Below are positions 6,564 to 49,011 of a stretch of 64,000 nucleotides of DNA, piece by piece (positions within the stretch are counted from its first letter, which is position 1; each line of letters opens with the position of its first letter). The stretch comes from Trissonchulus latispiculum (taxonomy: Eukaryota; Nematoda; Enoplea; Enoplida; Ironidae). The stretch covers positions 1-64,000 of the forward strand of contig JASAND010030309.1 in NCBI GenBank assembly GCA_030248195.1, given 5' to 3'. The position numbers and the translations under genes were made by a program. The notes below the pieces were generated by a model. It had not been told where the DNA came from. It worked only from the letters and a program-made list of their open reading frames with translations, and did not search any database.

Positions 6564-6589
6564 AGGTAGTGCGCTGACGCGCACTACCT
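6564..6589. repeat. Perfect 11-bp GC hairpin
   Basis: Arms AGGTAGTGCGC and GCGCACTACCT flank a TGAC loop. It is preceded by TTTTCCCTATTCT, exactly as at 22702-22715, where the stem sequence differs but still pairs. Confidence 0.8.
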
Positions 6590-8598: not shown

Positions 8599-8624
8599 AT
8601 AGGGGTCGCTGCCGCGACCCCTAT
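8599..8624. repeat. Perfect 11-bp GC hairpin
   Basis: Arms ATAGGGGTCGC and GCGACCCCTAT flank a TGCC loop, preceded by CATATT and followed by GATAC. It belongs to the hairpin family. Confidence 0.8.
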
Positions 8625-17467: not shown

Positions 17468-18639
17468 ACAAGTAATAAAAATGCTCCTCCGGAGCATGAA
17501 AAAGTAATATGGGTGGTGGTGAGGTTGTAAAATCAACAGAGGACTAGTCTTAAAAATGCTTAATATGGGGGCTAGGTTCGAAAAAAGAAGAGGACTAGGT
17601 TGTGGGCGAATTAATATGGGCACAGCTTCGCCGAGCAACCCATATTCGCGGACTGAAAAAGTTATATATATACATACGTATTACATATGTATATATATAT
17701 ATACCAGTGTTCATTTTCAGTTACGGTGCGTAAATAATATATATACAACTATGATAAACGAGTTTTAGTGGAAGCAAACATTTCTTTCGATAAACTCTTA
17801 ATATTTACTGTGCATTTTAACCATTGATAAGAAAGTCTACATTTCAACAATAATTTCAGGATTCTCTCCGACGATCTTCTATTTCTATTGAACCCTAAGC
17901 GTTACAATCATAGCCTTGGTTCTTTCTAGTTGCTTGCCGTAGTCCAGCACAACCAAATTACTTATATAGTTTACGTATATATATTGCGTTTTATATAGGT
18001 CTCCTTTAACGCCACCGGATGTCGATGAGTTGTTTTTATCTCATTGTCAAAATAATATGGGTTTAAATAATATGATAACTAGGGGGGAAAATGCCCTCGA
18101 CGGGCAACCAACTTGGTAGAATAGGGAAAGACTTGAATGTTAAATACACGGTGCATGGTTACAACTGAGATTCTGCTGAAGCGGAAAAATGCCGTTTCTC
18201 AGCGACTAAAATGACAGAAACCAGCTTTGTGCGCCGAATAGGGAATCTACTCGGCGACTAAAATGAAAGAAACCAGCTTTGTGCGCCGAATAGGGAATCT
18301 ACTCAGCGACTAAAATGAAAGAAACCAGCTTTGTCGCCGAATAGGGAATTCCCTCCTTCCGCCCTATTCGCGCGAACTTCTCTTTTTTTGGAGGAAATAT
18401 AGCAAGGTTAACAAAAAAAATCACCCCGAAAATTCGCAAAAAAAATCACCCCCCTACAGGATTAGTAACAAGCCGCAGCTGGAAAATTTTTTGCATGGTA
18501 ATAGCCAGAGGTCCCAACCTTAACATATGTAAGTTTGACCGCCGAGGCCCAACTCCTTCGACCAGGGTACCCAAAATAGTCGACCCACCCCAAAACCGAC
18601 CTTCGGACAACTCCGGACCAAAATTGAAAATTTTGCTAT

Positions 18640-18970
18640 TACTCACTATGGACTTTGCTTAGCTAACCCATATTATGCATGTAACATGTCCACACTCTGC
18701 ACTATCTAGCCATATATTGGATATCTTGCCATGACCTCTGGGCTGGCCCACGGTGGGTGATTTTTTTTGCGAACTTTTTCGCAAAAAAAAATCACCCACA
18801 ACTTTTGTAAAAAGGTGCGGGATGGCTGCTACAGCAAAACTAACACCAAATTCGAGCTCTACGAAAATTCCCCGAAAACCTATATAGCACATGTTTTTAG
18901 GTGCCTCAGACCCGTCTGACCCACTGACTGGCTGTTAGGCATGACCCCGACCCTCCGGACCCCTGGGGAG
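18640..18970 (-). repeat. Dispersed repeat, empty-site paralogue of 27.2-28.4 kb
   Basis: Read on the minus strand, this stretch matches 27290-27325, 27702-27750 and 28313-28400 in order. Shared phrases include GGGTCCGGAGGGTCGGGGTC, CAGTGGGTC, ACCTAAAA, GAGCTCGAATTTGG and the poly-T hairpin. Both insertions at 27.3 and 27.75 kb are absent here. This copy therefore defines the pre-insertion state. Confidence 0.7.
18760..18802. repeat. Hairpin, GTGAT-poly-T-GCGAA type
   Basis: The left arm GGTGA-T(8)-GCGAA pairs with the right arm TTCGC-A(9)-TCACC around a CTTTT loop. Relatives lie at 19450-19490 and 28379-28423. Compared with the GTCC hairpins at 13788 and 14489, substitutions are matched on both arms. 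Confidence 0.75.
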
Positions 18971-19975
18971 GTCTGGATCACACATGTGGGCTAAAGCTAC
19001 ATAAAAACAGATGCCAAATTTGAATTCTACGCCCCGAAAAACCTATATAGGCGAGTTTTTAGGCTTCCTGGACCTTGAAATAAAATTTTTGACCAGTCAC
19101 GTGACCCTGACAAAGGTCACGTGACCCTGGGCCAAGTCACCCTGGCCCAGTCCAGATGCGAAATTACTACGCCAAATTGTTTGCGCTGTGCTTACTATAG
19201 GAATAGAACACCAAACAAGTGGATTCCTAGCTTCCTGGAGTCAATAAACAGTGTCAAGAAAATTGGTCATGGTAGCCACTTTGGACCGGGGCCGAGCATC
19301 GAAATTCGAAGTTAAGCCTTCCAAAAGAAACTTCGGGGTCCAAATTTTTTTACATAATAACTCTATGGACTATGCTCTATTCATACATGAAAAGAAATTT
19401 TTCCTAGCTGTATCCTGAGATTAGATCCATGGGTGATCTTTTTTTGCGAACCCGTGATTTTTTTTGTGAATTCGTTAACAAAAAAAATCACAAAAATTTT
19501 TTTATTACTCTCGCTACACAAGAGCTATCGGCATGAAATTTGCACCATATATAGAGGGGATCATTACCAGTTGATACATACCAAAATTATTTCGATCGGA
19601 CTTTATTTGCGAAAATGGCAGCAAAAATTCGATTTTTGATTTTTTTTATTAACCTTGCTATTGTAGGCAATTATTCTGTTGGGAACTGGTAACGTAAGCA
19701 TTGCGCTCAATATGACATTTCACGTGCCGGTTGCGTGGTGACTAGGGGTGACGCTAGATTAATTTCTTTTTGAGCTACCTGATCCGTAACTATTTTACGC
19801 ATACAACCGCTAGCAGGATCAACAGAAAGCAACACTAAGTATATATGCAGTTTAAACAATTTGTGGTCGACAGTCCTTGTGCTAAAACATATACAATCAA
19901 TCGCATTTCATTTTATATATATAATGTTTGATTGTATCAATTCTCGGCAAGATCAGCACAGAGCACACCTATCAC

Positions 19976-19997
19976 AGGGGTCGCGGCAGCGACCCCT
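19976..19997. repeat. Perfect 9-bp GC hairpin
   Basis: Arms AGGGGTCGC and GCGACCCCT flank a GGCA loop, with ATCAC to the left and ATGAT to the right. It matches the hairpin at 8599-8624 except in the loop. Confidence 0.75.
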
Positions 19998-20473
19998 ATG
20001 ATATGTGTTATATATGCTCTCAATGTTTCTGATAGCACATCGAAGACATCGTATTTATGTCTGTGAAAACCTTGACTTACGTAAGTGCTTGATAAAACTG
20101 TTGATTTCTGAAGTAATTCTGCCATTCTGAAGCTCTCTCATTATTCAGCAAAGCAACACATAACAGGCTTCAAAGTTCGCGCGAATAGGGCGGAAGGAGG
20201 GAATTCCCTATTCGGCGACAAAGCTGGTTTCTTTCATTTTAGTCGCCGAGTAGATTCCCTATTCGGCGCACAAAGCTGGTTTCTTTCATTTTAGTCGCCG
20301 AGTAGATTCCCTATTCGGCGCACAAAGCTGGTTTCTGTCATTTTAGTCGCTGAGAAACGGCATTTTTCCGCTTCAGCAGAATCTCAGTTGTAACCATGCA
20401 CCGTGTATTTAACATTCAAGTCTTTCCCTATTCTACCAAGTTGGTTGCCCGTCGAGGGCATTTTCCCCCCTAG

Positions 20474-21000
20474 TTTCGCTTATTTTTCCGCTGCAGAGAA
20501 AATCATGTCAGAGAAGTTGCATACATATATACATACACAATGTAAGCAAAGCTAGCTACCGCAAACAGGCTGGATGAAAACGTTCTAGTTCAACTGAATG
20601 TATTTGCTGAAGCGGAAAAATGCCTGTTAATAGCCTTTTCAGAACTTTATACACGGTGCGTCATCTTAGGCAGGAAGGCCACTGTTCATGGCCTTTTCAG
20701 AACTTTTTACACGGTGCGTTATCTTAGGTAGGAAGGCCACTGTTCATGGCCTTTTCAGAACTTTTTACACGGTGCGTTATCTTAGGCAGGAAGGCCACTG
20801 TTCATGGCTTTTTCAGAACTTTTTACACGGTGCGTTATCTTAGGTAGGAAGGCCACTGTTCATGGCCTTTTCAGAACTTTTTACACGGTGCGTTATCTTA
20901 GGTAGCAAGGCCACTGTTCATGGCCTTTTCATAACTTTTTACACGGTGCGTTATCTTAGGCAGGAAGGCTATTTTAAAAGCCATTCAGCACCGTAACCTT
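20474..21000 (+). repeat. 58-bp tandem array, six copies
   Basis: ACACGGTGCG starts at 20651, 20709, 20767, 20825, 20883 and 20941, an exact 58-bp period. The unit includes GGCCTTTTCAGAACTTTT and GGAAGGCCACTGTTCATGG. The preceding 20474-20640 shares GCTGAAGCGGAAAAATGCC with the arms of the 18079-20473 element. Confidence 0.92.
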
Positions 21001-22714: not shown

Positions 22715-22742
22715 TAGGGGGAGCGCTAACGCGCTCCCCCTA
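22715..22742. repeat. Perfect 12-bp GC hairpin
   Basis: Arms TAGGGGGAGCGC and GCGCTCCCCCTA flank a TAAC loop. It is preceded by TTTTCCCTATTC, as at 6564. LINE coding homology starts at the very end of the right arm. Confidence 0.85.
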
Positions 22743-26480: not shown

Positions 26481-27075
26481 GACCATTTCAAGTAAAAGTG
26501 GGACTTAGAAACTTTTCGTCAAAACAGGTGAAAAAATGCAAAGTTTGGGCCCATCTCCTGAAAGCTACAGAGCGAAATTAAAAAATCCCCCTCGTTACTT
26601 TGTGCGCATAGTCCGAAATATTCAAATAAAATAAACCAAACCGATCTAGCTGCTAGCCTGTGAAAAAAAGTTGATTTCAACCGAAGTGCCAAAATACCGA
26701 AAGTCCGACTTTGGGGCCTTGGCACAGAGCCAAAGTTGGCCGAGTGCCAAAATGACCTTCGTTTGGTAGGATGGGGGGATACTGTCTACCAACATATCAT
26801 AGTAGCATTGGACCAAAATGCCCACATCGTTCCAACACTTCGCTAGAAAATGCACTTCCAATAAGCGTTATTAACCGAGAAAAAAAACAACCGCACGGTA
26901 ACTCTCGCCTAGTGCAAAATTTCGAAGTTTCGAATTTTAACCAAAAGTATGGTGGTACTTGTAGTACTACTCGAGTACTTTACGATGGTAACATTTTTAT
27001 CCCTCCCGGGCCTCTAATTAGCTGGCACCAGGCCAACACTGTCTCCAGAGGGCCGCGCAGACGCCTTTATACCCA
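26481..27075. other. Body between array and hairpin
   Basis: About 600 bp separates the array from the hairpin at 27076. This mirrors the 0.5-kb body between hairpin and array at 924-1394 and 4112-4560. No supported ORF. Confidence 0.35.
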
Positions 27076-27111
27076 TATTATGTAGGGGCGCTACCGCGCC
27101 CCTACATAATA
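27076..27111. repeat. Perfect 16-bp hairpin
   Basis: Arms TATTATGTAGGGGCGC and GCGCCCCTACATAATA flank a TACC loop. It is the longest stem of the family and includes the TATTAT/ATAATA flanks. Confidence 0.88.
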
Positions 27112-27324
27112 TAGATTTCATCAATTTTTCTAAAAACATTCACTGATAAATCCATTTAAATTTAAATTTAGGCAGGGGGTTACAAAATTTTTAGGGGAGA
27201 GGGTCGGTCGAAGGCCAACTTTGGGGGAAAGGTAGCCATTGCACCAGGCCACAGTTTGCCCCCTGTGGCTGTGAGATCCTGACATCCCCTTGGGTCCGGA
27301 GGGTCGGGGTCATGACTAAGGGCA

Positions 27325-32532: not shown

Positions 32533-32691
32533 TGTTAGCTAAAAAGTAACCACTTATGTCATGAATATAGTTTTGTGCTATTACTTTGAGTCTTGTGATG
32601 AGTAGTCGTGTGATATAGTTAGTGCTGTTGAGTCGCACGATAAGTGGTCCTTTGTCTCAATCTACAAGTTCTAAACTGCGCCGGTCCTACA
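32533..32691 (+). repeat. 5' LTR of copia element
   Basis: 159 bp, beginning TGTTAGCTAAAAAG and ending GGTCCTACA. Identical to the 3' LTR except A versus G in CAATCT(A/G)CAAG. Confidence 0.95.
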
Positions 32692-32709
32692 GGTTATGGG
32701 CCCCCAGTG
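32692..32709 (+). promoter_or_regulatory. Primer-binding site, initiator tRNA-Met anticodon region
   Basis: GGTTATGGGCCC immediately follows the LTR. It is complementary to the anticodon stem-loop segment GGGCCCATAACC of animal initiator tRNA-Met, the half-tRNA priming known for copia elements. Two extra C follow before AG, compared with the usual complement. Confidence 0.8.
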
Positions 32710-32803
32710 GGTGACCCCAAGACTGCTTAATATTTGGACATTTTTGGCTTGTTTTCCTGACATTCCTGGTAGCTTTGCCTACAGCAACACTTCCGGTGTG
32801 GAT

Positions 32804-34609
32804 ATGGCAGAGAAATCGAAGTCCTTAACTGTCGACAAATTTGACGGTAGTAACTATCCGATATGGAAATATAAAATGCGGATGTTACTTATCGAGAAAG
32901 ATTTATGGGGACACATTGATGGTTCCGAAGTTCTTGCAGAAGGGGCAAACGGGAATCAGGTGAGGGACTTTCAAAGAAGGGCCAACAAGGCCTTGGCGAC
33001 TTTGGTTCTGAGCCTGGAAGACAACCAAATTTTCTTGGTGAAGTCTGCAACTACTGCCAGGCAAGCCTGGGAAAATCTACAGGGACATTACGAGCGGCGG
33101 ACCTTGGTAAATAAACTTTATTTACGTCGAAAGCTGTTTCGTCTGATGATGAAAGATGACGATGACATGCTTTCTCACATAAATCAGGTGAAAGACCTTG
33201 CCGACCAGCTGTCGGCAATCGATGCTCCAGTGGGAGAAGAAGATTTGGTCACGATTCTGCTGGCTAGTCTTCCTGAATCGTACGAAACCTTAATCACCGC
33301 GCTCGATTCCCGTGGTGATAATCTTACCCTGACCTTTGTCGAAAGTCGTCTGCTCCAAGAGGCGGAAAAGAGGAAAGAAAACAAGCAAGGCTCCGATAAA
33401 TCACCAGAAAGCGCTTTGTCCGCTGAGCGTCAAACGCATTATAAGCCCAGAACAGGTAACTGCTTTAAATGTAACAAACCCGGACATTATTCATATGAAT
33501 GCAGGTCCCGTCCCGGTCGCTCTGATCCCAACCGTCCTAAGTTCCCAAATTTTCGGAACAGTCGAAAAGCGACTGCTACCCACAACTCAAATGCTGCTAC
33601 AGATTCGTCCGACGAGTCTTCGAATAATGCATTTGTGGTTTCAAGCGGGCGTCAGAATGTTCTTGTATCCACAAGCAGCAACCGTGATGCGTCTACGGAG
33701 TGGTACATTGATTCAGGCGCATCGCAGCACATGAGCTACAAGAAAGAATGGCTGCTGGACTACAAAGAATTGGAGAAACCAGAGGACGTCACTTTGGGCG
33801 ATGGTAGAGCAGTTCAAGCGATTGGCAAAGGGAATGTAGCTATGGTCATGTATCTTCCTAAAGGTGAAAGAAAAGTACTGTTTAAAAGTGTTTTCTACGT
33901 TCCCAAGCTGACTTTGAACTTGCTGTCTGTTCGCGCTATAACAAAGAAAAGGAAAAGAGTGGAGTTTACAAAGAATCTTTGCTCAATTTTCGGGAAAGAT
34001 CAACTCCTTGGCCAGGCAGAACTGGTTGGTAAACTGTATAAACTGAAATGTAGCTGGGACTGTCACCTTGCAAATGTTGCTGGCAAAGATAACTTAGACC
34101 TTTGGCATCAACGTCTAGGTCATGAAAGTATTGACAGTTTAAAAAGGTTGTCGTCTGAAAATGCAGTTAATGGTATTCCTGATTTCAGAGGCAAAACTCT
34201 AAGCTTCTGCAGAAGCTGCGTTGAAGGAAAACAGCACAGACAAAGTTTTCCAAAAGTTAGCGAAACCGGTACATCAGAGTTACTAGAACTGGTACACTCT
34301 GATGTTTGCGGCCCAATGAAAAATACTTCGATCGGGGGTTCCCGGTATTTTTTGACATTCATGGACAATAAATCTCGTTTGGTCTATGTCTATTTCCTGA
34401 GACATAAAAGTCGGGTTTTGGCTAAATTTCAAGAATTTGAAGCAGAAATTACCAACTTTACCGGAAAAAGAATAAAAACTTTGCGCACTGATAATGGAAC
34501 TGAGTATACTAGTGCAGAATTTGAAAAATTCTGCAAGGAAAGAGGAATCGTTCATCAGTACTCAGTCCCGTATACCCCAGCGAACAAAATGGAACAGCCG
34601 AAAGATTAA
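32804..34609 (+). CDS. Copia Gag-protease-integrase (frameshifted at 3' end)
   Basis: I place the start at ATG 32804, not the upstream ATG 32696, which overlaps the primer site. The frame then gives about 601 codons. Order: a Gag domain opening with FDGSNYPIWKYKM; a CX2CX4HX4C zinc knuckle at residues 220-233 (33461-33502); the aspartic protease active site DSG with Asp at residue 303 (33710); and an integrase zinc-binding HHCC segment from residue 435 (34106). The integrase core aspartates are at about residue 500 (34301) and 563 (34490), 63 residues apart as usual. The frame then slips near 34575, apparently by one base in a C run, before the catalytic glutamate. Downstream coding continues from 34618 in another frame. 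The polyprotein is therefore not made intact. Confidence 0.9.
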   Translation: MAEKSKSLTVDKFDGSNYPIWKYKMRMLLIEKDLWGHIDGSEVLAEGANGNQVRDFQRRANKALATLVLSLEDNQIFLVKSATTARQAWENLQGHYERRTLVNKLYLRRKLFRLMMKDDDDMLSHINQVKDLADQLSAIDAPVGEEDLVTILLASLPESYETLITALDSRGDNLTLTFVESRLLQEAEKRKENKQGSDKSPESALSAERQTHYKPRTGNCFKCNKPGHYSYECRSRPGRSDPNRPKFPNFRNSRKATATHNSNAATDSSDESSNNAFVVSSGRQNVLVSTSSNRDASTEWYIDSGASQHMSYKKEWLLDYKELEKPEDVTLGDGRAVQAIGKGNVAMVMYLPKGERKVLFKSVFYVPKLTLNLLSVRAITKKRKRVEFTKNLCSIFGKDQLLGQAELVGKLYKLKCSWDCHLANVAGKDNLDLWHQRLGHESIDSLKRLSSENAVNGIPDFRGKTLSFCRSCVEGKQHRQSFPKVSETGTSELLELVHSDVCGPMKNTSIGGSRYFLTFMDNKSRLVYVYFLRHKSRVLAKFQEFEAEITNFTGKRIKTLRTDNGTEYTSAEFEKFCKERGIVHQYSVPYTPANKMEQPKD

Positions 34610-34617
34610 ACCGCACT

Positions 34618-34917
34618 TTGGTTGAAACAGCCAGGTCAATGCTACAACATGCAAACCTTCCTAACACATTTTGGGCGGAGGCGATCTCCACAGCGGTATA
34701 TCTTAAAAGCAGGTCGCTAACCAAAGCAGTCAAAAGAATCACTCCTTTTGAAGCAGTGTTTGGTAAAAGACCCAGCCTAGCACATGCCAAATGTTTCGGT
34801 TGTTTGGCATTTGCTCATATTCCGAAGGCTAGTAGAAGCAAATTTGATTCCAAATCTGTAGAGTGCAGGTTTGTTGGCTGCAGCACGAGAACCAAAGGTT
34901 ATCGTTTATACGACGTA
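34618..34917 (+). pseudogene. Copia integrase C-terminal part, after the frameshift
   Basis: In a new frame, this continues the integrase with VETARSML, FWAEAISTAVYL and the small beta-barrel region typical of copia integrase (KCFGCLAFAHIP, then CRFVGCSTRTKGYRLYDV). Homology stops at 34917, the edge of the SINE. The remaining codons to 35139 are read through SINE sequence and are not copia. The coding resumes at 35305. Confidence 0.85.
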
Positions 34918-35293
34918 AAAAAAGGTAAAGGTAAAGTGACCCCTGGAGAGAACTCCAACCTACAGAAGGTTATAGGGTGCCGGTGCTTATCTCCGGATTC
35001 ACAGCCCGAAGCCAGGAGCGACAACTCTAATGTTGACTACATCTGTGGAAGGGGGGCCAGCCCTTCATCAGGCATTACGCCAGAACACAGACTCCTGTTA
35101 CCTTCCCACCGCAGTGGTACCCATTTACCGACCAGTTAAGGATAGACAGCTGGGTTGGCTGGAGCCCACGGCGAACCGATATGTGCTTAGTCCTTGCTCA
35201 AGGGGATTTGTGATAGCCTTGTGGCAGCGGGGGTTCGAACCTAGGACCGTCAGATCTTCAGTCGAACACCTTACCACTCGGCCATTACGGCAC
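34918..35293 (-). mobile_element. tRNA-derived SINE inserted in copia
   Basis: The 376-bp insert is flanked by the perfect 11-bp duplication TATACGACGTA (34907-34917 and 35294-35304). Read on the minus strand, the head (35293 to about 35225) is tRNA-like. It has an A box TGGCCGAGTGG and B box GGTTCGAACCC, resembling class II tRNA-Ser/Leu. A ~250-bp body includes CCTTGAGCAAGGACTAAG, which recalls conserved central domains of animal SINE superfamilies (inference). The 3' tail is ACTTTACCTTTACC plus a short T run. Confidence 0.92.
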
Positions 35294-35304
35294 TATACGA
35301 CGTA

Positions 35305-35870
35305 GCCAGAAAGAAAGTGATTGTGGCCAGGGATGTGGTGTTTGACGAGGGAAGTTTCGTTTCTAGAAGTGGAAAAGAAAAGAAAACCGTAGAAGCCGGA
35401 TCTGATACAGATTCCGGAACAGATTCTGAAAAATTGGAAGAGCCGGAACGCCAGGAGCAAGAACGTCATGAGCCTAATGCTGGTGAAGAACCTGTTGAAG
35501 AACTTCGACGATCAAAAAGATTGAAACGTCCACCGACGAAGTACGAAGAAATGGGAAACAGATTGAAGGAGGCTGCTAGATCGCGATCTGTGCATTTTGC
35601 TTGCTTTGGTACCCAAATTCATGAATCCAGTTCGATTCCAATGGAGCCACGTCTTAAACTGAACAAAGAACTTCCTGAACAGGAATGCTTGGACGAGAGT
35701 CAGAAAAGTTTGTATCAAACAGTGGTTGGTAGCCTACTTAATACGCCACCACTGCCACCCGTCCTGATCTGGCCGCTTCAGTGGGAGTGGTGTGCCAGTT
35801 TACCTCGGGGCCAGGTCGGGCTCACTGGCAAGCTGTGAACACTGACTGACAACTGACATGCAAGCTGATG
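35305..35870 (+). pseudogene. Copia pol remnant: RT-RNase H junctions after large deletion
   Basis: After the SINE the frame resumes with VIVARDVVFDE and an acidic linker with RRSKRLKRPP, the usual stretch before reverse transcriptase. All RT catalytic motifs are missing. Sequence jumps at about 35630 to the PMEP and YQTVVGSLL motifs that precede RNase H. A frameshift near 35735 then puts the start of RNase H in another frame (TRPDLAASVGVV-like), ending at a stop near 35850. A final ADVLTKPL motif at 35860-35885 marks the normal C-terminus after a second deletion. Confidence 0.82.
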
Positions 35871-35973
35871 TTCTTACGAAGCCACTACTTAAATCTGAAG
35901 CCACTACATAAATCTAAATTTCAAATTTTTCGTGTTTTTGTTGGTGTTCATGAAATAAGTGGTTAAGTGGGAG

Positions 35974-36132
35974 TGTTAGCTAAAAAGTAACCACTTATGT
36001 CATGAATATAGTTTTGTGCTATTACTTTGAGTCTTGTGATGAGTAGTCGTGTGATATAGTTAGTGCTGTTGAGTCGCACGATAAGTGGTCCTTTGTCTCA
36101 ATCTGCAAGTTCTAAACTGCGCCGGTCCTACA
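35974..36132 (+). repeat. 3' LTR of copia element
   Basis: 159 bp, preceded by the polypurine-like AAGTGGGAG and followed by the target duplication TATCC. Confidence 0.95.
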
Positions 36133-36389: not shown

Positions 36390-37430
36390 GCGATCAGTTG
36401 ACTCACTCAGTCAATGGTTGGGGTCGTCTAGCTGGTCTTCGCCTCAATGCTAACAAGTCTAAGATCATCCCGCCGGATAATGAAGTCATAATGGTCCTAG
36501 TCAGATCATCATAGGCGGTGTTGCAGTCGAAAAGGTTAGGGCGTTCCCTTACCTTGGCAGTATATTCATTAGTGACTGTTGTGAAGATAGCACTCACAAG
36601 AAACATACAAATTTATTCGAGTTAAACAAAGTTTGACAAACGCTCAGTATTTTTCCAAGTCCTGTCTAAATCCATCAGTCAATTAGCCAATCTCAGAAAT
36701 TAGTTCAATGTTGAACAAGTCAGTTGGTTGGGAATCGTTGTAGAGTGTGGTCGGGGATTTTGGCAGAGCAACTTTTTGGCGGTTTTTGGGAGTTTGGGGT
36801 ATTTTGGGTTTTTCTACCGCGTCCGGCGCTTGTCACGTTCCGGACTGTTTGAGTCTTGCTTGCCGCATTTTGTGATTTCGACAGTAAATTGTGTTATTTT
36901 GAAATATTTCCTTCAGTTGGTTAGGGTCAACATTTTCCGACATCGCACACCACGTAGTTACCTGTGATCTTCTACTAATAGTCTCGTCCTAAATTCTGGG
37001 CAGTTAACTCGTTTTATTAAATAATGCATACAATTTACTAACATTCGTAGAGTCAAACTTCACACTGTGATCTATCATTAGAGATCAATGCTAGAATCAG
37101 CAAGGCTAGAGCTGTGCTCGGACAGCTATAAAAGTGCCTTTGGTGTCGGCGTGCGATATCGATCAGAACTAAGCTTCGCGTCCTGGACTCAATGGTAATG
37201 CCGATTCTACTGTATGCTATTCTACGGCATGCTAGGTTCCCTTGGGAGAAGTTGATCCAGGACTTGGCAAGCAACGGGATCAATGGAGAAGGGTTATAGA
37301 AAATGCTGGATTGGAAGCGGAGCCCTTCATGTTGCAGATTCTGCAATGACGAAGGCCCAAGTACAAGTACTAGTACAAGAACCGCAGGCAAGTCCTGGTC
37401 TCGGAAGGTGGGCCTAAATGAATTTGCCAA
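36390..37430 (+). pseudogene. Decayed RTE-type LINE fragment
   Basis: Scattered frames give RLAGLRLNANKSKI (about 36428), IGGVAVEKV and FPYLGSIF (about 36510-36570), then INARISKARAVLGQL and RTKLRVLDSMVMPILLYA (about 37080-37220). A tail resembling the RTE C-terminus lies near 37240-37290. These are in order for an RTE pol C-terminal half. About 450 bp at 36600-37060 has no homology and may be a further insertion. Multiple stops and frameshifts. Confidence 0.6.
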
Positions 37431-39805: not shown

Positions 39806-40063
39806 AGCAGAAACCAGCTTCGTGCGCCGAATAGGGAATCTACTCTGCGACAAAAATGACAGAAACCAGCTTTGTACGCTGAATAAGGAATCTACTCAGC
39901 GACAAAAATGACAGAAACCTGCTATGTGCGCGAATAGGGAATCTTACTCGGCGACTAAAATGACAGAAACAAGCTTTGTATGCCTAATAGGGAATCTACT
40001 CGGAGACTAAAATGAAAGAAACCAGAATAGGGAACGCTCCTTCCGCCCTATTCGCGCGAACTT
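39806..40063 (+). repeat. ~57-bp tandem array, left boundary
   Basis: Five diverged units, each AGAAACCAGCTTYGT then GAATAGGGAATCTACTC. Homologous to the arms at 18200-18377. Confidence 0.85.
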
Positions 40064-42400
40064 TGAAGCCTATTTTGTGGTGATAACATATGATAGAAAG
40101 CTTAAGATGATTTGATAGGCAAACGTTTTCTCAAAGACTGGAGCAGCAGTTTTAACAAACACAGAATAAGCTGTCTTCGATGTGTTATCACGCTCATTGT
40201 GCATATTCGGATTTGGATATTTGTAATGTTACGGGTGAAGTAAAAGCCAAAAAGTTAAGAAAGCTCATAAAAACCATGAATTGCGATTGGAACTTGATTT
40301 ATTATTGTATGTTGCTTTTGGAATCAGCTATTCAGAACCTAGAATGTAGTGTGTGAACGTCCAAGCAATCTTTGTAATTGTCTGTTGATCTTGTGAATAC
40401 CAGAGTTGCCAGCCGGTTCAAATAACTCAAATCACTAATAATCTTACCAAACGGGACATAGGTTCCAGCGTGGTTAAGAAACCAGGTTTATAATGGTGTT
40501 AGAACACGAATGAACAGCGCAAGAAGAGAATAGGAACTCAGTAGAATCTAGGAGCAAGGAATAAGGTTAAAATATAGCGTTATAATCTGCATCGGTAGTG
40601 CCAGAATAGGATAGGAACCTAACGTAATATGAGCTAATAAGGATCGATCAGGGCTAACAATTAACGGAGAGGTCGTTACCACTCCAGGGTCAGTAATAGG
40701 CCCCAACTATAGCCTTTGATCAACTAACGGAGGAGTCGTTACTCTTCCCCAGGCCTTAACGGGCCTCCTATTATTTGAAAATGGTTCAAAATTTCATTTA
40801 AAGTAAACTTATACTAGTGAAGAGGAAAGTTTATCAAAGGTATCACTCAAAAAGAAGTGAACTATTACAGAAATTGCAGTTAAAAATAACATATACGGTC
40901 GTACGTTGGAAGATGGGTCATTTGAACTTAATTATTTGTAGCTAGGCGTATGAAATATGGTTTTGGAGCACTAATATGCTAGTTAGGCCTAATTAGTGTT
41001 AATTAGGCAATAATTAATGAATTTTTACGATTTTGAGTGAAAATATAACTTAGGCTCATCTGAAAGGCAATTTCTTCCTGGTTCTAAAAAGCCAAACCCG
41101 GTCTTTTAACTCCCAATATTGCGAAAGATATAGGTTAAAATAGTTTTGTAACTTTAAAATTTAATTCTTTAATTTTAACCTTACGTAAACTCCTTAAGTG
41201 GGCGTAACAAGCACTTGTTGTTACGCCCATTCATTCTTTCATTCATTTCCCTATCCATTCTTGGGCTTCTGTTGGCCCTCTCCCAGCGAAGACTTGCCTC
41301 GCAGAGGAAGACTTAGTGTGTACTTCATAGGTAACAATAGGTTCGGAGGGGGCGTAACCCTCTCCCAAATTGTTTGAATAAAAAGAAAATAAGTAACCTT
41401 AGGTAGTTACATACGTAGATTATTAATATGCAATTTTTATTAGCTAGAAAAATACGTAACTCTTTGTATGCACAACTTTTGCGTAACAATTGCCCTCCCG
41501 TTCCTTACGGTAGGGAGTTCCAGCTCTAGTGAGGGAGAGCAATTGTCGCTGGGATTAACAAGGCGGCCTCCCTTGTTCCTGGCCGAAAATTCATGACTAA
41601 AAGGAAGAGAAAGGGGCCAGTGAATAAGGGAGCGCCTGAAAAATGTAAAATACGAATTTTACAAAAGTTCACAACAACCACAGTACTTAATATTTGTTTT
41701 TTCATATTGGGCCCCGGGAGGCCTTTAGTGTCCACTATTTCATTTTTCATTTCATGAGAATTCATTTTTTTATCAGAAACTTTTTTCCCCTTTGGTTACC
41801 TTTATGTGTTAACCAAAAAGTCTGGAAAGTTTGTGGAGATTCAGCTCTGGAAATTTGTCACACAAAGGGGCCATAATTCTAGACCCCCATAAATCTCTAT
41901 TCCGGTGGGCCAGGCGTGCAAACAGCCCACGTCGGGTCTGCACCCACAAAGGGGATTTCCAGAAGAGTCTGGAAATCCCGTCCACCTCAAAGAAACCGCC
42001 AACAGGCGTGAGGTAGACCGACTGGAAATTCAAAATTTCCAGTCAGTCTTTGCTTCAGCTCCGGCCGAGAGCGGCCGTGTATCCCCCCTTCTAGTGCGTC
42101 TCCTGGTGTGCCAGCGTTTTGGCCGGAGAATCCCCAACGCACTTTTCACCCCCCCATAGGACCACGAGTTAGGACCTCCTCTGGCCCACACAGGTCAGAG
42201 GAGAAGATCTGAGTCTACACGAAGCAAAGACACACACAACCTAGGGCCATTTGAGCGCATTATGCTCGGCCAGATTCACACAGAAAACGCAACTTTCTAG
42301 GTTTTAGAAGGCCCTTTTCGGCCTATTTTTACCTTTGTTTTTCGGCCTTCGGGCCTTTAATTTTTAATCAAAATGTAGCCCTTTTTGGCTCATTAGTAAT
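40064..42400. other. ORF-poor block with hairpins, part 1
   Basis: No credible coding region. Hairpins include 40666-40685 and 40729-40748 (both with a CGTT loop), a nested pair at 41487-41547 (CAATTGC...GCAATTG outside), and 41952-41979 (12 bp perfect, GGGATTTCCAGA). Another is 42020-42044 (11 bp perfect, GACTGGAAATT), and 42344-42355 has a TTCG tetraloop. CTGGAAA recurs six times at 41820-42040. Composition lacks the (TA)n and G/C runs of neighbouring DNA. Confidence 0.6.
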
Positions 42401-42590
42401 TCAAAATTAGCGAGCCCTCGTGGCCAGTTTTTTCACTTTCAATCAGCGAGCCCTCGTGGCCAGTTTTTCATTCTATTCAGCGAGCCCTCGTGGCCAGTTT
42501 TTTACATTTTTCAACTAGCGAGCCCTCGTGGCCAGTTTTTACGTTTTTCAACCAGCGAGCCCTCGTGTCCAGTCGTTTTTGCTTTTTTCA
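42401..42590 (+). repeat. Five-copy AGCGAGCCCTCGTGGCCAG array
   Basis: The 19-bp word starts at 42409, 42444, 42479, 42517 and 42553 (last copy TGTCC instead of TGGCC). It is separated by T-rich spacers of 16-19 bp. Each unit contains CGAG-CC-CTCG dyad symmetry plus TGGCCA. Confidence 0.92.
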
Positions 42591-45500
42591 CGTTTTTTGG
42601 GGTTATTTGGTAATGAAGGGATTCTGAGTGGGGACCCACCCTCGAGTTGAGTTAGGAGGTCCCTTGGTCACGACCTCGTGTTCTGAACTGGGTTAAGTCT
42701 AGGGAATAATTCTCCCCACAGCCGGCAATTAGGAATTGCCGGCCATATTCATGAAGTTAGGCACTACTGAAGTTAAAACTACTGTCTGTAATTGTGTTGT
42801 GTTATTTGTGTAGGTCGGCTACCCAAAACTAGCAGGAATTAAAACCCAGAAAACTGTTTTTAATCATTAATTATCCAGCCTTTTTGAGGGGAATGGCCGG
42901 CTTCCCCAAAGTTAATTTAATCAAGCTGTCCTTAGCGGAAATGATTGTGTTGTTTAGTAATAATTGCCGAGCAATTATTACTCGTTTTGCTTTCCAACAA
43001 ATTTTCAAAGTTTCAAAATTCCAGTCTCGGTTAAAGTTCAAACCTACAAAATCTGGGCTCCAGACGGAGACCCGTTGATGCCAAAAAATACAACAAAATG
43101 TGCATACAAAGAATAGGTAAAATAGGTAGATTTAGGTAGGAAAGTGTTAGGATTTGTATTATGTTATTCTGCTGATTATGTAACTGTTGGTGTGATTGTG
43201 CTCGTAATTGTGTGAATGTGAACCCCAAATTTACGTACTTGGCTTCTTGGGTAAATTCCTTATGGATTATGAGGTTCCAAGCTTAGCCCCTTTTTAAGTG
43301 TGAGTTCTGAACCAAAATTGCGTAACTGTGGGTGTGATTGAGGGCAGACCATGTAAACTACCTTTGTTTGATAAGGATCTTGGAAATGCCAGAATGAATG
43401 TGTTATTACTCTGATATTAGGCAGGAACTGGGCCAAATTGAGTAGCGATTTGGCCCTTAATTATAAATAATCAGGGATCTGTTTCGGTTAAAGCTTAGAC
43501 GCGTATTTGACGTAAAATTGCCCGTTTCTGAGTGAATGCAATGTAAAGTTTGTCTACTTATTGTTCTGTTGACGGTTAGGGCAGACTCTGCAGCCTAGGG
43601 TCACGGGGACCCCCTATTAGGTCTGCAGGTCTGTCGGATTTCCGGTCATCCGTGTAGGTCGCCCTGCAATTAGGGGACGGATGAGCCGCAACTATGAAAC
43701 CCAGCACTAACCGGTTTAGACAGGTAGATATTGAATGAAATAGGTAGAAATCTGTCACTAGTAAAAGTCTCACAACAAATGTCCGATTAGCGGATTGGTA
43801 GTTAGTTAGCTCTAGATAAAGCCTTATAATAAATGTCCGGTTAGCGGACTGGCAGTTTAAATTAGTCCTAGGTAGGAAAATAGTTGCAGTCCTGTTATAT
43901 TAATTAGCTGGCATTCTTAATAATTGGGGAAATAGTTAAGTCTAGTTGGAATAGGGATATTAATAGTCTTGGCCTAAAACTTATCATGGGCTCACGGTCG
44001 TTACCGTAATCACTCAACTTCCCATGTTAAAGGCCAAAAGACAGACCAAACTAAAAGAAAAAGAAGTAGACCCGTACTGAGATTCGAACTCAGGTTCTCT
44101 GGATTAATAGGTCCAGTGCTTTTCCATTGAGCTAACGGGTTACAATTAGAACGAGTTCAAGCTAGCCTATATAAGAAAGCAATGTAGCAAATTAGCACGT
44201 GTGCAGTTCAATTAGTACATTATATGTGTTAATTATGCATATGTGGAACCAAACTTTAACTGTGTTTTTCTCACTAATTACTTAACATTTTTTGGTGCTG
44301 TAAGCACAAAAAATGCTCAGTTTTCTAAGCTCTACAAGAATATATAACCTTTACTTAAATCCGTGTTCATCGAAATTTTGTTAATTTATATGCCAGCTTT
44401 GCACGAATGCAATTATGTGCTCGTGTGAAAGGGTGGTAGTACGCGCGACTGTCACTCGGCTGGCTGCTGGGGTTGCCAGCACCGGATCGAATAGCGGTTC
44501 GGCACGTCCCCTGTTAGGGCACTAGGATAAGGGGTAGGTAGATTTAGAAGTAGACGTAGTTCGTAAGTAGGGACTGCGTAAAATGGCTGCTGAGACAGTG
44601 AGTGAGTGAGTTTTTGCATTTTTGGTAAGAAAACAGTTAATACTAATTATGTGCAAAAACTCACCCACAAAGCAGCCTATTAATTTATTTTAACAATATA
44701 GGTAGGAAAACTGATTAGCCATAGAACGTTTAATCAAATGAACAGCAGTATTTATTCTTAAGTTAACATTACGTAGGTTTTGGTAGTTTAATATACATAG
44801 GTAAGTAGGCAGTAGCTAGGGTAATTGTAGTAAACAATAAATACCTGACCATCTTCCAACATTAGAAATTCATTTAGAAAACATCAAGTTTTGTATACGT
44901 TCAAGATTAGCAGCAGGCCACGGGAAACAAGCCTGTTTCCCGTGGCAAATCAACGAAATTGGGCCAGAACTAGGCCAAAAAATACAAGTTATGTTCGGTC
45001 ATTAAATCTGTTCAAGTGAACCTGTGAGTTTCTGTCAGGATCTGTTTGTATTAACCTAGGACGGGCCAGGCGGCCCGGTCTGTGCAAGAAAAAGACAGAA
45101 ACTAGTAAGGTTTTCAAATAAGGTACGAATAGCGAAGTTTATACGTTAGTAAGAATTGTTTCGTCTAATTGCAAGTCAGTAAGACCTAATTTGGGTCCAG
45201 ACGTGAGAACATTATGAATCGTTTTGTCTACGCGAAGAATTACTTCAAGTTTAATCAAAACCAACAAGTTGTAATCTAAACTGGCCAAGAAGGCCTGTTT
45301 TGTGACAAGAAATTACTATGAACAGTTAGTTTCGTCAAAAAAGCCATAACCAATGGTTTGGTGTCATTTCGTCAATTCACAAGTTCAAATAGGGCCCAAA
45401 AGGCACATTTTGGGCCAGGAAAGCGAAAGAACGAGTAATGGTTGCTGGGTTCGATTCCCGCACCGTGACCTTGTATTAATGGGTTTTAACCCATTTGATT

Positions 45501-46480
45501 CAGGTGCGCGGATCGTCTCTAGTTCGGAATCAGAGCCAGTGAGCTAGTCAGACTTGGATCTGTCAGTGGAAGTCTTTGGATTATCAGAAGCAGTAGTCGA
45601 TTATTTATTGGATCCGGAAGCGATCCCTGAAATTGAAGTTGGACCTATCAGACAGACAGTTGCGGAGCCTAATCACTGTAGGCACCTTGTGGACTTAGAG
45701 CATAACTAAGGTCGAGATCAGAGACGAATCCAGCCGGCACTTGATATCACTTGGGCAAACTATACCGTGGACTTTGACATTCAAAATCAGTCTTTACTTC
45801 TTTGCTAGAAATGTATAACCTTATCCAGTTCAACCTTTTCGCCTCCGGGGCTCAGTTCCCCCTGTCTCTGGCTTGAGCTTAGGTAGCAGCCAGAAGTTCA
45901 GTGTATCTTGAGAGCGGAAGAAACCGAAGAAGCACCAATTCTTGAACATTGTATAATTGTAGTTAATTTCCTATTAATTAGAGATAAGTAAGGAAGGACA
46001 TCCAAAACCCCCCACTGTTTCGCGTTCCTCAAATTCTATCCCACATAGCATCCCTGAACTGAGTGTCGGAGCGAAAACTTTCAGGGGCTCACCCAAAGAC
46101 CGACCCAAAGACCGGTTTTAACAATTAGTAGCTTAGTTTGTTGTGATATTAGTTTGACAGTCCTATTGTAAGGGGACGTATAAAGAGTAACAGCACAAGC
46201 ATATAGGGCAATACACAGCATATAGGGAAATTGAGTTAGCAAGAATTAGTCGAGTGAAAGGGTGTAAAAGGCGTTAAGAGTATCGACCTAGTCCCAATAA
46301 CTTAACCAAAGTTTGTAATATTATTCCAGATTGGAATAATATTAATAATAACCTAGGAAGGGAAATTATCTGGCAACTCTGGTACAGTAATCGTGTACTG
46401 TATCTGATTATATTGTAACCTACTCGTTGGTATTGTAGTAATTGTCAGTTTGAACGCACAGAATTGTAAGAATCGTAATT
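42591..46480. other. ORF-poor block with hairpins, part 2
   Basis: Perfect hairpins: 42721-42743 (10 bp), 42956-42982 (12 bp), 43430-43456 (9 bp), 43646-43684 (8 bp enclosing 4 bp), 43994-44007 (5 bp, CGTT loop), 44917-44946 (13 bp), 45062-45077 (6 bp), 45393-45416 (9 bp) and 46316-46344 (13 bp). GTCCG-NTTAG-CGGAY occurs at 43783 and 43836. AGGTAGGAAA recurs at 43136, 43871 and 44701. A tRNA-like sequence lies at 44069-44141. No convincing ORF. Confidence 0.65.
44069..44141 (-). tRNA. tRNA-like sequence, possibly pseudogene or organelle-derived
   Basis: On the minus strand a cloverleaf can be drawn. The 7-bp acceptor AACCCGT/ACGGGTC has one end mismatch. The D arm is GCTC...AAGC, the anticodon stem CTGGA/TCCAG, and the T arm CTGAG-TTCGAAT-CTCAG. 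The A-box-like TAGCTCAATGG and B-box-like GTTCGAATC are present. The anticodon loop CCTATTAA has 8 bases instead of 7, so identity is uncertain (Asn-like ATT, Ile-like TAT or a one-base-inserted Lys type). No CCA is encoded. Confidence 0.55.
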
Positions 46481-46483
46481 GTA

Positions 46484-46860
46484 GTGTTTTCATTAAATTG
46501 TCCGTTTGTTAGTTACCGAGTCTTAGGCGCGTTAGCCTTCACATACGGTGCATTTACCGTGCAACTACTAGCCCCAAGAAAGAACCGAAGATCCAGTGAG
46601 GAAGAACTCAGCCAAATCCAGTGCTCATCAAGAAAGCAAGTGCTGACCCCGCTTGCTATACAATTGGAGAGATCATCAAGGAAGCAAGTGCTGACCCCTC
46701 TTGCTGTCCGACTGGAGAATCAACTCAGGAGCCTCAAACGAACTCACAGACAAAGACCCCTACCAAGGTTGGCCGCAGAGAATCTCTGATTCTGGAACAC
46801 CACCTTTCAGAGATCTGGTGCTTAAGTCTGCTTCATTGCGAACAGACGTGCTGACCTTCC
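46484..46860 (+). other. Possible low-complexity ORF with a 48-bp duplication
   Basis: Two overlapping open frames cross a direct repeat of ATCAAGRAAGCAAGTGCTGA (46627 and 46675). One frame yields a repeated KEASADPSC-like peptide. No domain is recognised and neither start is favoured, so I do not call a gene. Confidence 0.25.
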
Positions 46861-46992
46861 GTGTAAAGAAGAGGAGTTTAGAGTGTTTAGAGTTTGGAAC
46901 AGATCAGAGTTTTGATCTTGCTCACTTCATTACATATCCTTGCAGATGTGTGTGCTTCGTTCCGGTCTCGTCGAGAAATGATAAAATCATGC

Positions 46993-47108
<116 letters not shown>

Positions 47109-47267
47109 TACATTTGATTGCACATATTTTACATATTTAAGGACTGTCGGCCACGAATTGTTGCTCCTGCTTGCTATTGCTTATGTGTATAACATTTTAC
47201 AGATGGGGTAGGTCAAAATGTGAACAGCTTAGGGCCACCAGTAGTCGCCATGCAATATGCACGTTAA

Positions 47268-48276
47268 GGTGGTGGTGTCCTTTTGTGCAGTGCTTTTGTC
47301 GTGATTCTTTTGAAACGCTATAACTTTTGCAATTTTGAGAGTTGGAAAGAGCTTTATACATCGTTTTAAAGCTTAGAATCTGCAGATTCGCATCAGCTTA
47401 TGAAACCAGCAAAATCAGCACAAAACTAGCAAAAATGTTCTGACATGCTGACATCTGACAGGCTAAATATAGACGAAAAATTTTTGAACATGGATTGCTC
47501 AAAACTGTAGAATCGGCCAAAATTTTTTCTTGTGCCATGGTATGAAGGACATATGGGTCGAGGGACATTTTTTGGATTTGGCTGAACAAGCCTCAATACT
47601 CCAGAAAATCCGGGAAATGTGCGGTGACACGAAATTTCGCAACTTTGTATTCAGTTTTCTCGCAACTGGAGACGTTTTAACTCAAACCCAGAAAAAAGTC
47701 CCTCCGCAATAGTACGAATTTTCATTTTGGCAAAGATCACGCGAATCCATTGGGTAGTGTTTGAGAAATTGCTGTTTAAAACAAAATAATCGCAGTTTTT
47801 GCCAAAATGGTTTTTCGGCCAAATCTCTAGCTTAAAGCAACGAATCCCAGCTAATAGGCACTGATAAATGGGCAATTTGACCGCGTATTGATAGAGTATA
47901 AATAACCGAAAATTGTTCGTAGGTTTTAGCAGTTATTTTGAAAAAACTGATTTTTTTCGAAAATGGCCGTTTTTTGACCCCAAAAATCGTTTTTGGCTTA
48001 TACTGACTTAACCCTGAGAGATAGCTCAAAGGTTGTAAAAGCAAAAATGTTCGTTTTTGTACCCTCTTTCCATCCATAATAACCAATCTGATGTATCGAT
48101 TACCTACTGAGAGTATTATGCCAAAAATCGAAAATTTCTCATCTTTTCACCTAAAAATGCGGGACTGGTCCGAGAATGTTAAAGAGCACCAAAATAGCAC
48201 ATTTGGAAAGTTTCATCTACTTTCATAAAGAATTTAAGCCTGTAGGGTCAAATTTACACAAAAGGAAACCACCACC
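47268..48276. mobile_element. TTAA-flanked TIR element, copy B
   Basis: Full-length relative of 14710-15724 in the same orientation, with termini GGTGGTGGTGTCCTTTTGTG and CACAAAAGGAAACCACCACC. TTAA lies at 47264-47267 and 48277-48280. It sits inside the 39806-48546 segment, so it arrived after that segment formed. Confidence 0.85.
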
Positions 48277-48362
48277 TTAAATGTGATAGTGACATTAATC
48301 CTTACGTTAGTGGATGTGAGCAGAATATGCATATCATTACCTATTTTCTCCCGAAAGATGAA

Positions 48363-48546
48363 AAGTTCGCGCGAATAGGGCGGAAGGAGGGTTCCCTATT
48401 CGGCGACAAAGCTGGTTTCTTTCATTTTAGTCGCCGAGTAGATTCCCTATTAGGCATACAAAGCTGGTTTCTGTCATTTTAGCCGCCGAGTAGATTCCCT
48501 ATTCTACCAAGTTGGTTGCCCGTCGAGTGCATTTTCCCCACAAGTT
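48363..48546 (-). repeat. ~57-bp array, right boundary
   Basis: Inverse of the left array, ending in TGCCCGTCGAGTGCATTTTCCCC, the terminus type of the 18079-20473 element. Confidence 0.82.
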
Positions 48547-49011
48547 TTTATATAAATACAGTGGTCGAAGGTTTTTACCTAGGGATTAGCAATCACCTAG
48601 ATAACTAGATGGAATAAATTTTTGTACAATTTTTTGGAAAATTGGCCAAAAATTGGGCATGTTATTATTATTATTATTATTAAAAATTAGGGTAAATTTC
48701 CAAAATTTTTCAAAAAAAGTGCAAATTTTTTGGGTTAACGTGTTTATTATCGCGAGAAATACACGTTTATAACGGTTTTATGGACTTATGGACCTATAGA
48801 CTGATAGACCTTATTCTGGACTCTGAAACATGTTGCCAATCAAGATTTCGAATTTAAAAACACTTTCTAATGTTAAAATTTCTCAATGATTTCATGTTTT
48901 TCATTAGCAATGGCTGAAAATGCGATTCTTGGCTTAAAAATTGAAAAATTTTGGGGGGGGGAGGCTGGGGGAGGTCGTGGGGGCGGTTTGGGCATTGGGG
49001 GCATAGTTCCT

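Follow-up and report, generated by a model that had tools for sequence, protein, structure and literature searches.

A hairpin-rich block in a contig of Trissonchulus latispiculum as the probable solo long terminal repeat of a giant Ty3/Gypsy-type retroelement

The hairpin-rich block and its parent retroelement

The window analyzed here is a stretch of 64,000 nt from the nematode Trissonchulus latispiculum (contig JASAND010030309.1, assembly GCA_030248195.1, positions 1–64,000 of the forward strand) and contains, between about 40 and 47 kb, a block densely packed with perfect hairpins. A preliminary description, made from the sequence alone, placed this block at 40660–46350 and offered three possible origins: an organelle-derived insertion, a locus for a structured RNA, or the cargo of an undescribed element. 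Our comparisons make it very probable that the block is a solo long terminal repeat (LTR) of a giant Ty3/Gypsy-type retroelement abundant in this genome, and that the hairpins serve this LTR as functional components under purifying selection. A distinct unit thus exists where it had been described, although it is larger, extending from 40222 to 46934 (6,713 bp; sense on the + strand): these ends are common to copies on other contigs, and on contig C20497 the sequence borders an 18-kb retroelement interior on both sides. Of the three proposed origins, the element came closest to the truth, the block being part of one, albeit an LTR and not cargo.

A search of the genome for further copies, recommended in the preliminary description, gave 58 matches to the block in the 734-Mb assembly, with 73–100% identity and including the window block itself; one copy may account for several of these matches. 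For comparison, 16 LTR copies were retrieved with their flanks. In the complete copies homology begins and ends at identical points; in L011, L012, L019, L020, L021, L022, and L023 there is a cut, an interruption or diverged sequence at some point. The LTR termini are TGTAATG...CATTACA. Of 12 starts, 11 read TGTAATG; CATTACA is found at 12 of 14 ends and at 19 of 20 further ones, and the exceptions are point variants. Perfect 4-bp target-site duplications (GTTG, CATA, CACT, TATT, CATA, AATC, and GATA) surround seven of the 11 retrieved copies in which both ends could be read. Among those without a perfect duplication (L010, L011, L017, and L022), L010 and L017 are LTRs of longer elements, because a leader lies to the right of L010 and the 3′ end of an interior to the left of L017. 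By comparison with the retrieved copies, the corresponding sequences in the window are TATT (40218–40221) and TATC (46935–46938). Our scripts took the LTR as 40222–46932, two bases short of its end.

The family is abundant. Allowing up to two mismatches, the hairpin at 42721–42743 has 1,811 occurrences across the 734-Mb genome (877 and 934 by strand), and the reversed pattern, used as a control, has none; a query with the right end of the LTR retrieved 2,320 first-look candidates, of which the 40 that were scored are 94–100% identical. At G000 C2195:34108–39453, two LTR pieces lie in inverted orientation and meet at 37174.

On C20497, the only contig where an LTR pair was seen around a gag-pol interior, two LTR ends on the same strand lie 24.6 kb apart (5′ LTR start at 151013, 3′ LTR start at ~126219), delimiting an element of ~31.4 kb, both LTRs included, with an interior of 18 kb. 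The two LTRs are 95.5% identical over 948 bp and 96.5% over 318 bp. The leader is common to three (L010, L033, and L041) of 32 right flanks, which comprise two sets of 20 and 12, with L028 and L029 representing near-identical places; in C20497 it contains, 16 nt past the LTR, a candidate primer-binding site. Pfam searches of this one interior, run as seven separate pieces with open reading frames (ORFs), matched Retrotrans_gag (2.8e-7), zf-CCHC (2.9e-4), Fusion_gly (PF00523, 5.8e-9), RNase H (2e-40), reverse transcriptase (7.5e-39), integrase core (3.5e-10), and NADAR (8.9e-10). The order in the interior is gag, zinc knuckle, the fusion glycoprotein match, the pol ORF, SH3 and OTU matches (both below the cut-off), NADAR, an ORF without matches, tandem repeats and the 3′ LTR. 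The PF00523 match, located between gag and pol and read in the gag frame, exceeds the cut-off; the top PDB hit of this region by sequence, an F0, has only E 0.086. The frame from gag to this region is broken by stops in the C20497 copy, and pol, in a different frame, is a single ORF of 1,334 amino acids (aa) with protease, reverse transcriptase, RNase H, and an H2C2 integrase. As judged from this domain order, with protease, reverse transcriptase, and RNase H preceding the H2C2 integrase, the element is of the Ty3/Gypsy (Metaviridae) type. In the accessory ORFs past the integrase (L046, NADAR, and OTU-like pieces), NADAR is thus above and OTU below the cut-off. Of 771 relatives, 120 were listed, and the few named entries among these are a fish, frogs, a bivalve, an ant, and two bacterial metagenome-assembled genomes (MAGs). 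One pol protein filed under a Nitrospirales MAG (P0189) is 74% identical over 44% of the query, and is probably eukaryotic contamination.

The solo LTR would be what remained after the two LTRs of such an element recombined, and it lies in an older inverted-repeat transposon. The left flank (40037–40206, + strand) aligns with 20199–20012, inside an inverted-repeat element of the window that we designated E1 (18077–20475), and its portion 40065–40206 reaches a score of 88, compared with 49 for the best shuffle. The right flank (46945–47295, + strand) continues the same type of element, with scores of 46 for 46945–46990 (shuffle maximum 28.5) and 121 for 47103–47295 (shuffle maximum 54). Once joined, the flanks align across the insertion site with contiguous sequence in E1, whereas alignment of the edges of the block itself with E1 scores at chance; E1 therefore represents the empty site.

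Hairpins and their conservation among copies

All eight simple and two nested hairpins named in the preliminary description are present at their positions. When only perfect stems are counted, with a minimum length of 9 bp and loops of 3–12 nt, there are 11 in 40660–46350, where 100 dinucleotide shuffles gave 0.054 per kb (~0.3 per block) and a maximum of three, so the excess over shuffled sequence that had been anticipated is real. Nevertheless, the chance background of 4^-11 per position invoked for it is unsuitable, because the baseline must come from the same genome, itself hairpin-rich: the parts of the window to the left and right of the block hold ~8 times as many perfect hairpins as their own shuffles. 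The interval 40207–46944, which was picked after the fact, contains 11 perfect hairpins vs. 32 in the other 57 kb (density ratio 2.9, binomial p 0.004), and the best non-overlapping interval of equal size elsewhere in the window, in steps of 250, contains seven. The block thus has about three times the genomic background of hairpins and is not astronomically rare. With loosened criteria (loops of up to 60 nt and up to two mismatches) the excess is small, 2.04 vs. 1.62–1.66 per kb. The compositional peculiarities that had been pointed out also hold: runs of (TA)≥5 number zero inside the block and 17 outside, and G/C runs of at least six number three inside and 128 outside. There is no ORF of at least 100 aa from 38.4 kb to 46484, although the claim that none occurs until 46.9 kb is slightly off, with two ORFs starting at 46484 and 46701. 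The word TAGGTAG appears eight times on the + strand of 40207–46928 and never on the − strand, vs. seven and one times in the rest of the window.

Conservation was examined in an alignment of the window LTR with 15 of the retrieved copies (L023 was left out; pairwise identity 84–94%). From 22 modelled hairpins, a set of 14 was selected with the alignment known, leaving aside those that were poorly kept (43585, 43646, 41644, and 40748), perfect never or once (41486 and 44602) or overlapping with counted ones (42015 and 44289). Two of these 14 are perfect in all 16 aligned copies, and the remainder in 6–15. Excluding the window copy, stem columns of the 14 hairpins vary in 1.49% of 4,221 cells, as compared with 3.0% in loops and 5.57–6.30% in flanks, and in every one of the 14 the stem varies less than its own 30-nt flanks. 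The difference persists with all 22 modelled hairpins, poorly kept ones included (2.06% in stems vs. 5.88% in flanks), as well as with hairpins of at least 9 bp picked blind from each of seven copies (1.4–1.9% vs. 5.6–5.9%); in each of these seven copies, none of 500 random placements was as conserved as the blind-picked hairpins. The overall rate of variation is alike for A/T and G/C positions. Variants common to at least two copies, which arose mainly in source lineages, amount to 0.031 per stem column vs. 0.171 elsewhere, that is, 5.5-fold fewer, and singleton variants to 0.115 vs. 0.244. The six shared stem variants comprise three G.T, one double change that pairs, one A.C, and one other mismatch; the 33 singletons comprise eight G.T, three paired, 12 A.C, and ten others. 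Judging from these patterns, purifying selection probably maintains the hairpins in the lineages that spawn copies, and the fact that they remain largely intact between copies suggests that the element depends on their folded shape.

The individual hairpins differ in how well they are kept, as counted among the 16 aligned copies, window included. Those at 42721–42743 (10 bp) and 45393–45416 (9 bp) are perfect in all 16; 15 copies have perfect forms of those at 41952–41979 (12 bp), 42176–42203 (8 bp, with two compensated pairs and two compensated cells), and 44286–44315 (9 bp, its outer pair changing from C-G to T-A in five copies). The hairpins at 40987–41008 and 43430–43456 (9 bp each) are perfect in 13 copies, those at 41199–41229 and 42956–42982 (12 bp each) in 12, and the two 13-bp hairpins, at 44917–44946 and 46316–46344, in ten and six, respectively. 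A further hairpin at 42015–42049 has an 11-bp core (42020–42044) that is perfect in 11 copies, and is perfect as a whole in six. Of the nested structures, that at 41486–41546 is perfect in none of the copies, with 92.9% of its cells paired, and that at 43646–43686, which the preliminary description had named, folds in the window copy and keeps its modelled pairs in only 46.5% of cells.

A multibranched domain with covariation occupies 41880–42260 (+ strand), with single-copy fold z-scores of −6.9 on the + strand and −5.8 on the − strand. It was analyzed in an alignment of 28 rows (the window, the 16 retrieved loci and 11 added partial copies), from which RNAalifold derived a structure of 107 pairs; deriving and testing the structure on the same alignment favors the structure. 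Changes on both sides of a pair were found in six pairs and 15 cells, where shuffles averaged 2.1 and 2.5 and none of 500 was as high, and further pair types numbered 32 vs. 29.7, with 25 of 500 shuffles as high. Slid controls were 30–46% paired and showed 0–3 pairs changed on both sides. Examples include columns 172/369, whose arms are far apart, where U-A is replaced by A-U in four copies and by C-G in one; columns 221/270, with G-C replaced by A-U in five copies; and columns 187/198, changed on both sides in two. The pairs of the + fold, a fold chosen on the + strand, contain 60 G.T and 11 A.C cells, and those of the − fold contain 21 and 28, respectively. When the window and pieces of C20497 were searched with a 188-position covariance model, the domain of the window was recovered and, at E 0.85, a single row.

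Several results weigh against the reading of the block as a solo LTR with selected, folded hairpins. The target duplication of the window copy matches in only three of four bases, and the LTR pair on C20497 lacks a matching one. Nor does selection acting solely on the source account for the scarcity of singletons in stems, since many of these should be neutral mutations that followed insertion. While four of the six shared stem variants keep a pair on the + strand (two do not), 22 of the 33 singletons break it. Within the covarying domain, 99.1% of cells pair vs. 98.6% after shuffling, a difference this small because most pairs never vary, and independent events are fewer than cells because the copies are related and several double changes come from one subfamily. 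The proposal of a structured RNA locus is borne out in part, with conserved stems some of which covary, but no strand preference was found in helices folded on both strands (eight G.T vs. six A.C cells); similarly, windowed folding of the 16-copy alignment gave 693 GU cells on the + strand and 682 on the −. In the RNA-folding scan that had been suggested, z-scores are lower than in the flanks with windows of 150 nt, for which no significance test was made, but in 120-nt windows the excess fails to reach significance (p 0.58 and 0.10), and after excision of the hairpins they are not lower than in the flanks. We consequently discarded fold z-scores as evidence for RNA, as their excess depends on the choice of window and disappears when hairpins are removed.

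Other features of the LTR and of the window

Antisense to the LTR, on the − strand, 44069–44140 forms a tRNA-like cloverleaf with an 8-nt anticodon loop and a T-rich run downstream (42.8 bits with Rfam), which ARAGORN detects in 11 of the 16 retrieved loci. In the 16-copy alignment, 20 of the 21 pairs of its stems are nearly invariant; the seventh acceptor pair survives in three copies (as G-C in two and as A-T in one) and is missing from the remaining 13. Its variation (3.2% vs. 4.7% nearby) is only mildly low. By eye, no complementarity was apparent between its 3′ end and the candidate primer-binding site; its database matches are weak only, with phage tRNA genes among them. Apart from tRNA, Rfam at E ≤ 5 gave just two hits, both at chance level.

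The LTR also includes a 37-bp tandem repeat, gappy between copies (42409–42590, + strand), and a subfamily-variable segment (45508–45947) that corresponds to a gap between matches in many copies, within a region of low conservation (45422–46022). A candidate TATA box (46179–46185) and a candidate polyadenylation signal ATTAAA (46492–46497), both on the + strand, are each present in 14 of 16 copies; if they were a real pair of promoter and poly(A) signals, nearly 6 kb of the LTR would be U3. The layout is ambiguous because there are alternative TATA-like sites at 44168 (15 of 16 copies) and 44341 (10 of 16) and alternative A[A/T]TAAA sites at 41377 (15 of 16) and 44836 (9 of 16).

An insertion captured in an inverted-repeat element was also considered, with the 15-bp inverted pair TACCAGAGTTGCCAG (40398/46370) or a CATAT repeat as its ends, and was rejected: neither of these is at the termini shown by the copies. 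Direct or inverted similarity between the two ends of the block is at chance level. A prokaryotic origin was likewise rejected, with no match of 40207–46944 in phages or plasmids; in viral contigs, one pattern from the tandem repeat of the block and one from the E1 hairpin gave no match.

The inverted-repeat elements of the E1 family (18077–20475, 39808–40064, and 48362–48553) carry 52-bp tandem repeats in their arms, which are 99.7% identical over 303 bp in E1 and 83–89%, piecewise, in those outside the block. Two further inverted pairs, 3107–3333/3804–4030 (100% identity) and 17468–17654/25262–25448 (98.9%), have arms starting with ACAAGTA, and one arm of each adjoins a TA-rich run. The perfect hairpins at 6564–6589, 8599–8624, 19976–19997, 22715–22742, and 27075–27112 lie in differing contexts but have related tips, GCGCTNNCGCGC or CGCTGCCGCG, and may represent a small class of dispersed palindromes of this genome. 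Finally, a Copia element with 159-bp LTRs of 99.4% identity occupies 32533–36132; one of its ORFs, of 637 aa, spans gag to integrase, and later parts are in separate ORFs.

Possible role of the hairpins and comparison with known systems

An LTR is transcribed in the sense direction. For this reason, and because stem-loops in long R regions are a known cause of conservation (PMC3601003), action at the RNA level is likely, and the hairpins most likely act in the sense RNA. The U3 region, nearly 6 kb if the signals at 46.2–46.5 kb are real, would then belong to the 3′ portion of the genomic RNA, and its stem-loops could there serve packaging, export or stability. As a tentative extension, to which we give less than even credence, the 6.7-kb LTR of this giant, envelope-bearing element might be essentially a large functional RNA, its sense transcript having a series of selected stem-loops and one or more covarying multibranched domains, plus a conserved antisense tRNA-like gene that has its own T-run terminator, jointly serving packaging, export or escape from silencing of the 31-kb genome. 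Within the same solo LTR, the palindromes might instead act as DNA, as sites for dimeric proteins or as extruded hairpins that control transcription or integration. We consider this rather unlikely, even though it fits the several perfect stems with loops of 3–4 nt and the want of wobble bias, be it in both-strand helices or between strands in windowed folding; the closing stem of the covarying domain, with ten pairs, arms ~165 nt apart in the window copy and covariation (columns 169–179/362–373), fits a folded RNA better, and so does the prevalence of G.T over A.C in the + fold but not in the − fold, with the reserve that the fold was chosen on the + strand.

It is improbable that the hairpins of this solo LTR lack function and were made and re-perfected by short-range template switching during replication. 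Perfect inverted repeats can arise in this way (PMC7954356), the process can mimic compensatory changes, singletons are likewise rarer in stems, and the surplus of perfect hairpins over shuffles extends to the rest of the window; however, template switching would copy or erase changes and not by itself slow them, whereas stems show the 5.5-fold deficit of shared variants, and the majority of aligned copies have the 14 hairpins in identical positions. Two other explanations are already refuted. The position of the insert inside an E1-family element with an empty site recalls captured filler, as in the gap-filling model described for Pack-TIRs (PMC8277862), but there is hardly any chance of this, given that copies elsewhere have the same ends and their own target duplications and the insert itself is a dispersed LTR. 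The probability of an organelle-derived insertion is smaller still, practically nil: hairpin-rich non-coding DNA with one tRNA-like sequence is compatible with it, but six-frame translations with code 4 revealed no organellar protein, there was no match to rRNA, and what was found instead is a dispersed repeat with target-site duplications and the anatomy of an LTR.

We know of no settled explanation for why giant retroelements keep LTRs of several kilobases. The LTR studied here is mostly devoid of long ORFs, yet its stems vary about four times less than their flanks, so that LTR length has a testable content, namely structure. The 1,811 places for a single hairpin in one genome allow a fine measurement of selection and covariation, and solo LTRs of this type can be told from host genes for non-coding RNA. 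Our limited literature search did not find any published report of conserved hairpins in a multi-kilobase Gypsy LTR.

Burro and GYPSM1 are giant Gypsy-like elements of planarians, for which envelope homology located in frame between gag and pol was singled out (PMC6431247). The element from T. latispiculum resembles the description of Burro in its size of more than 30 kb, gag in first place, homology to an envelope fusion protein between gag and pol, the order protease, reverse transcriptase, RNase H, and integrase, accessory domains and high copy number (PMC6431247); tandem repeats, marked in the legend of the Burro figure (PMC6431247), are also present in the C20497 interior. It differs in the length of the interior (~18 kb here vs. 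up to 25 kb in Burro; PMC6431247), in the frame of pol, which is not that of gag and the F-like region, and in the NADAR domain found here. The Burro domains MATH, BCL2, BIR, ankyrin, and dUTPase did not appear at E ≤ 0.01 in our Pfam searches of the seven ORF pieces, nor at E ≤ 5 in three of these; in Burro they were identified with HHpred, which is more sensitive (PMC6431247). We call the element Burro-like, not Burro, because those accessory domains were not found by Pfam and because the likeness rests on comparison by description and not by sequence.

The tRNA-like sequence recalls Helenus and Cassandra, terminal-repeat retrotransposons in miniature (TRIMs) with tRNA- or 5S-derived sequences in the LTR, of which the animal Helenus also makes 4-bp duplications (PMC10886601). 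Nevertheless, TRIMs are short and non-autonomous (1,263 bp in the longest Helenus) and their tRNA-like part is likely a promoter (PMC10886601), whereas here it is antisense and located in the 6.7-kb LTR of a gag-pol element. Hairpin-rich non-coding DNA is also seen in the repetitive hairpin-forming elements of sponge mitochondrial DNA (PMC2800124), where a few types of hairpin are repeated; the hairpins described here, by contrast, are mutually different and reside in a dispersed LTR. Very long LTRs occur in the Ogre elements of dicot plants, at 1.9–6.5 kb (PMC6431247) vs. 6.7 kb here, although these are plant elements, compared here in LTR length. As for the structures themselves, stem-loops in the long R regions of retroviruses favor the conservation of both stem arms in LTRs (PMC3601003); the difference is that here 14 well-kept hairpins are distributed along 6.7 kb, and the majority lie outside the putative R region delimited by the signals at 46.2–46.5 kb. 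A very long LTR with hairpins held by selection would appear to be more interesting than an odd insert.

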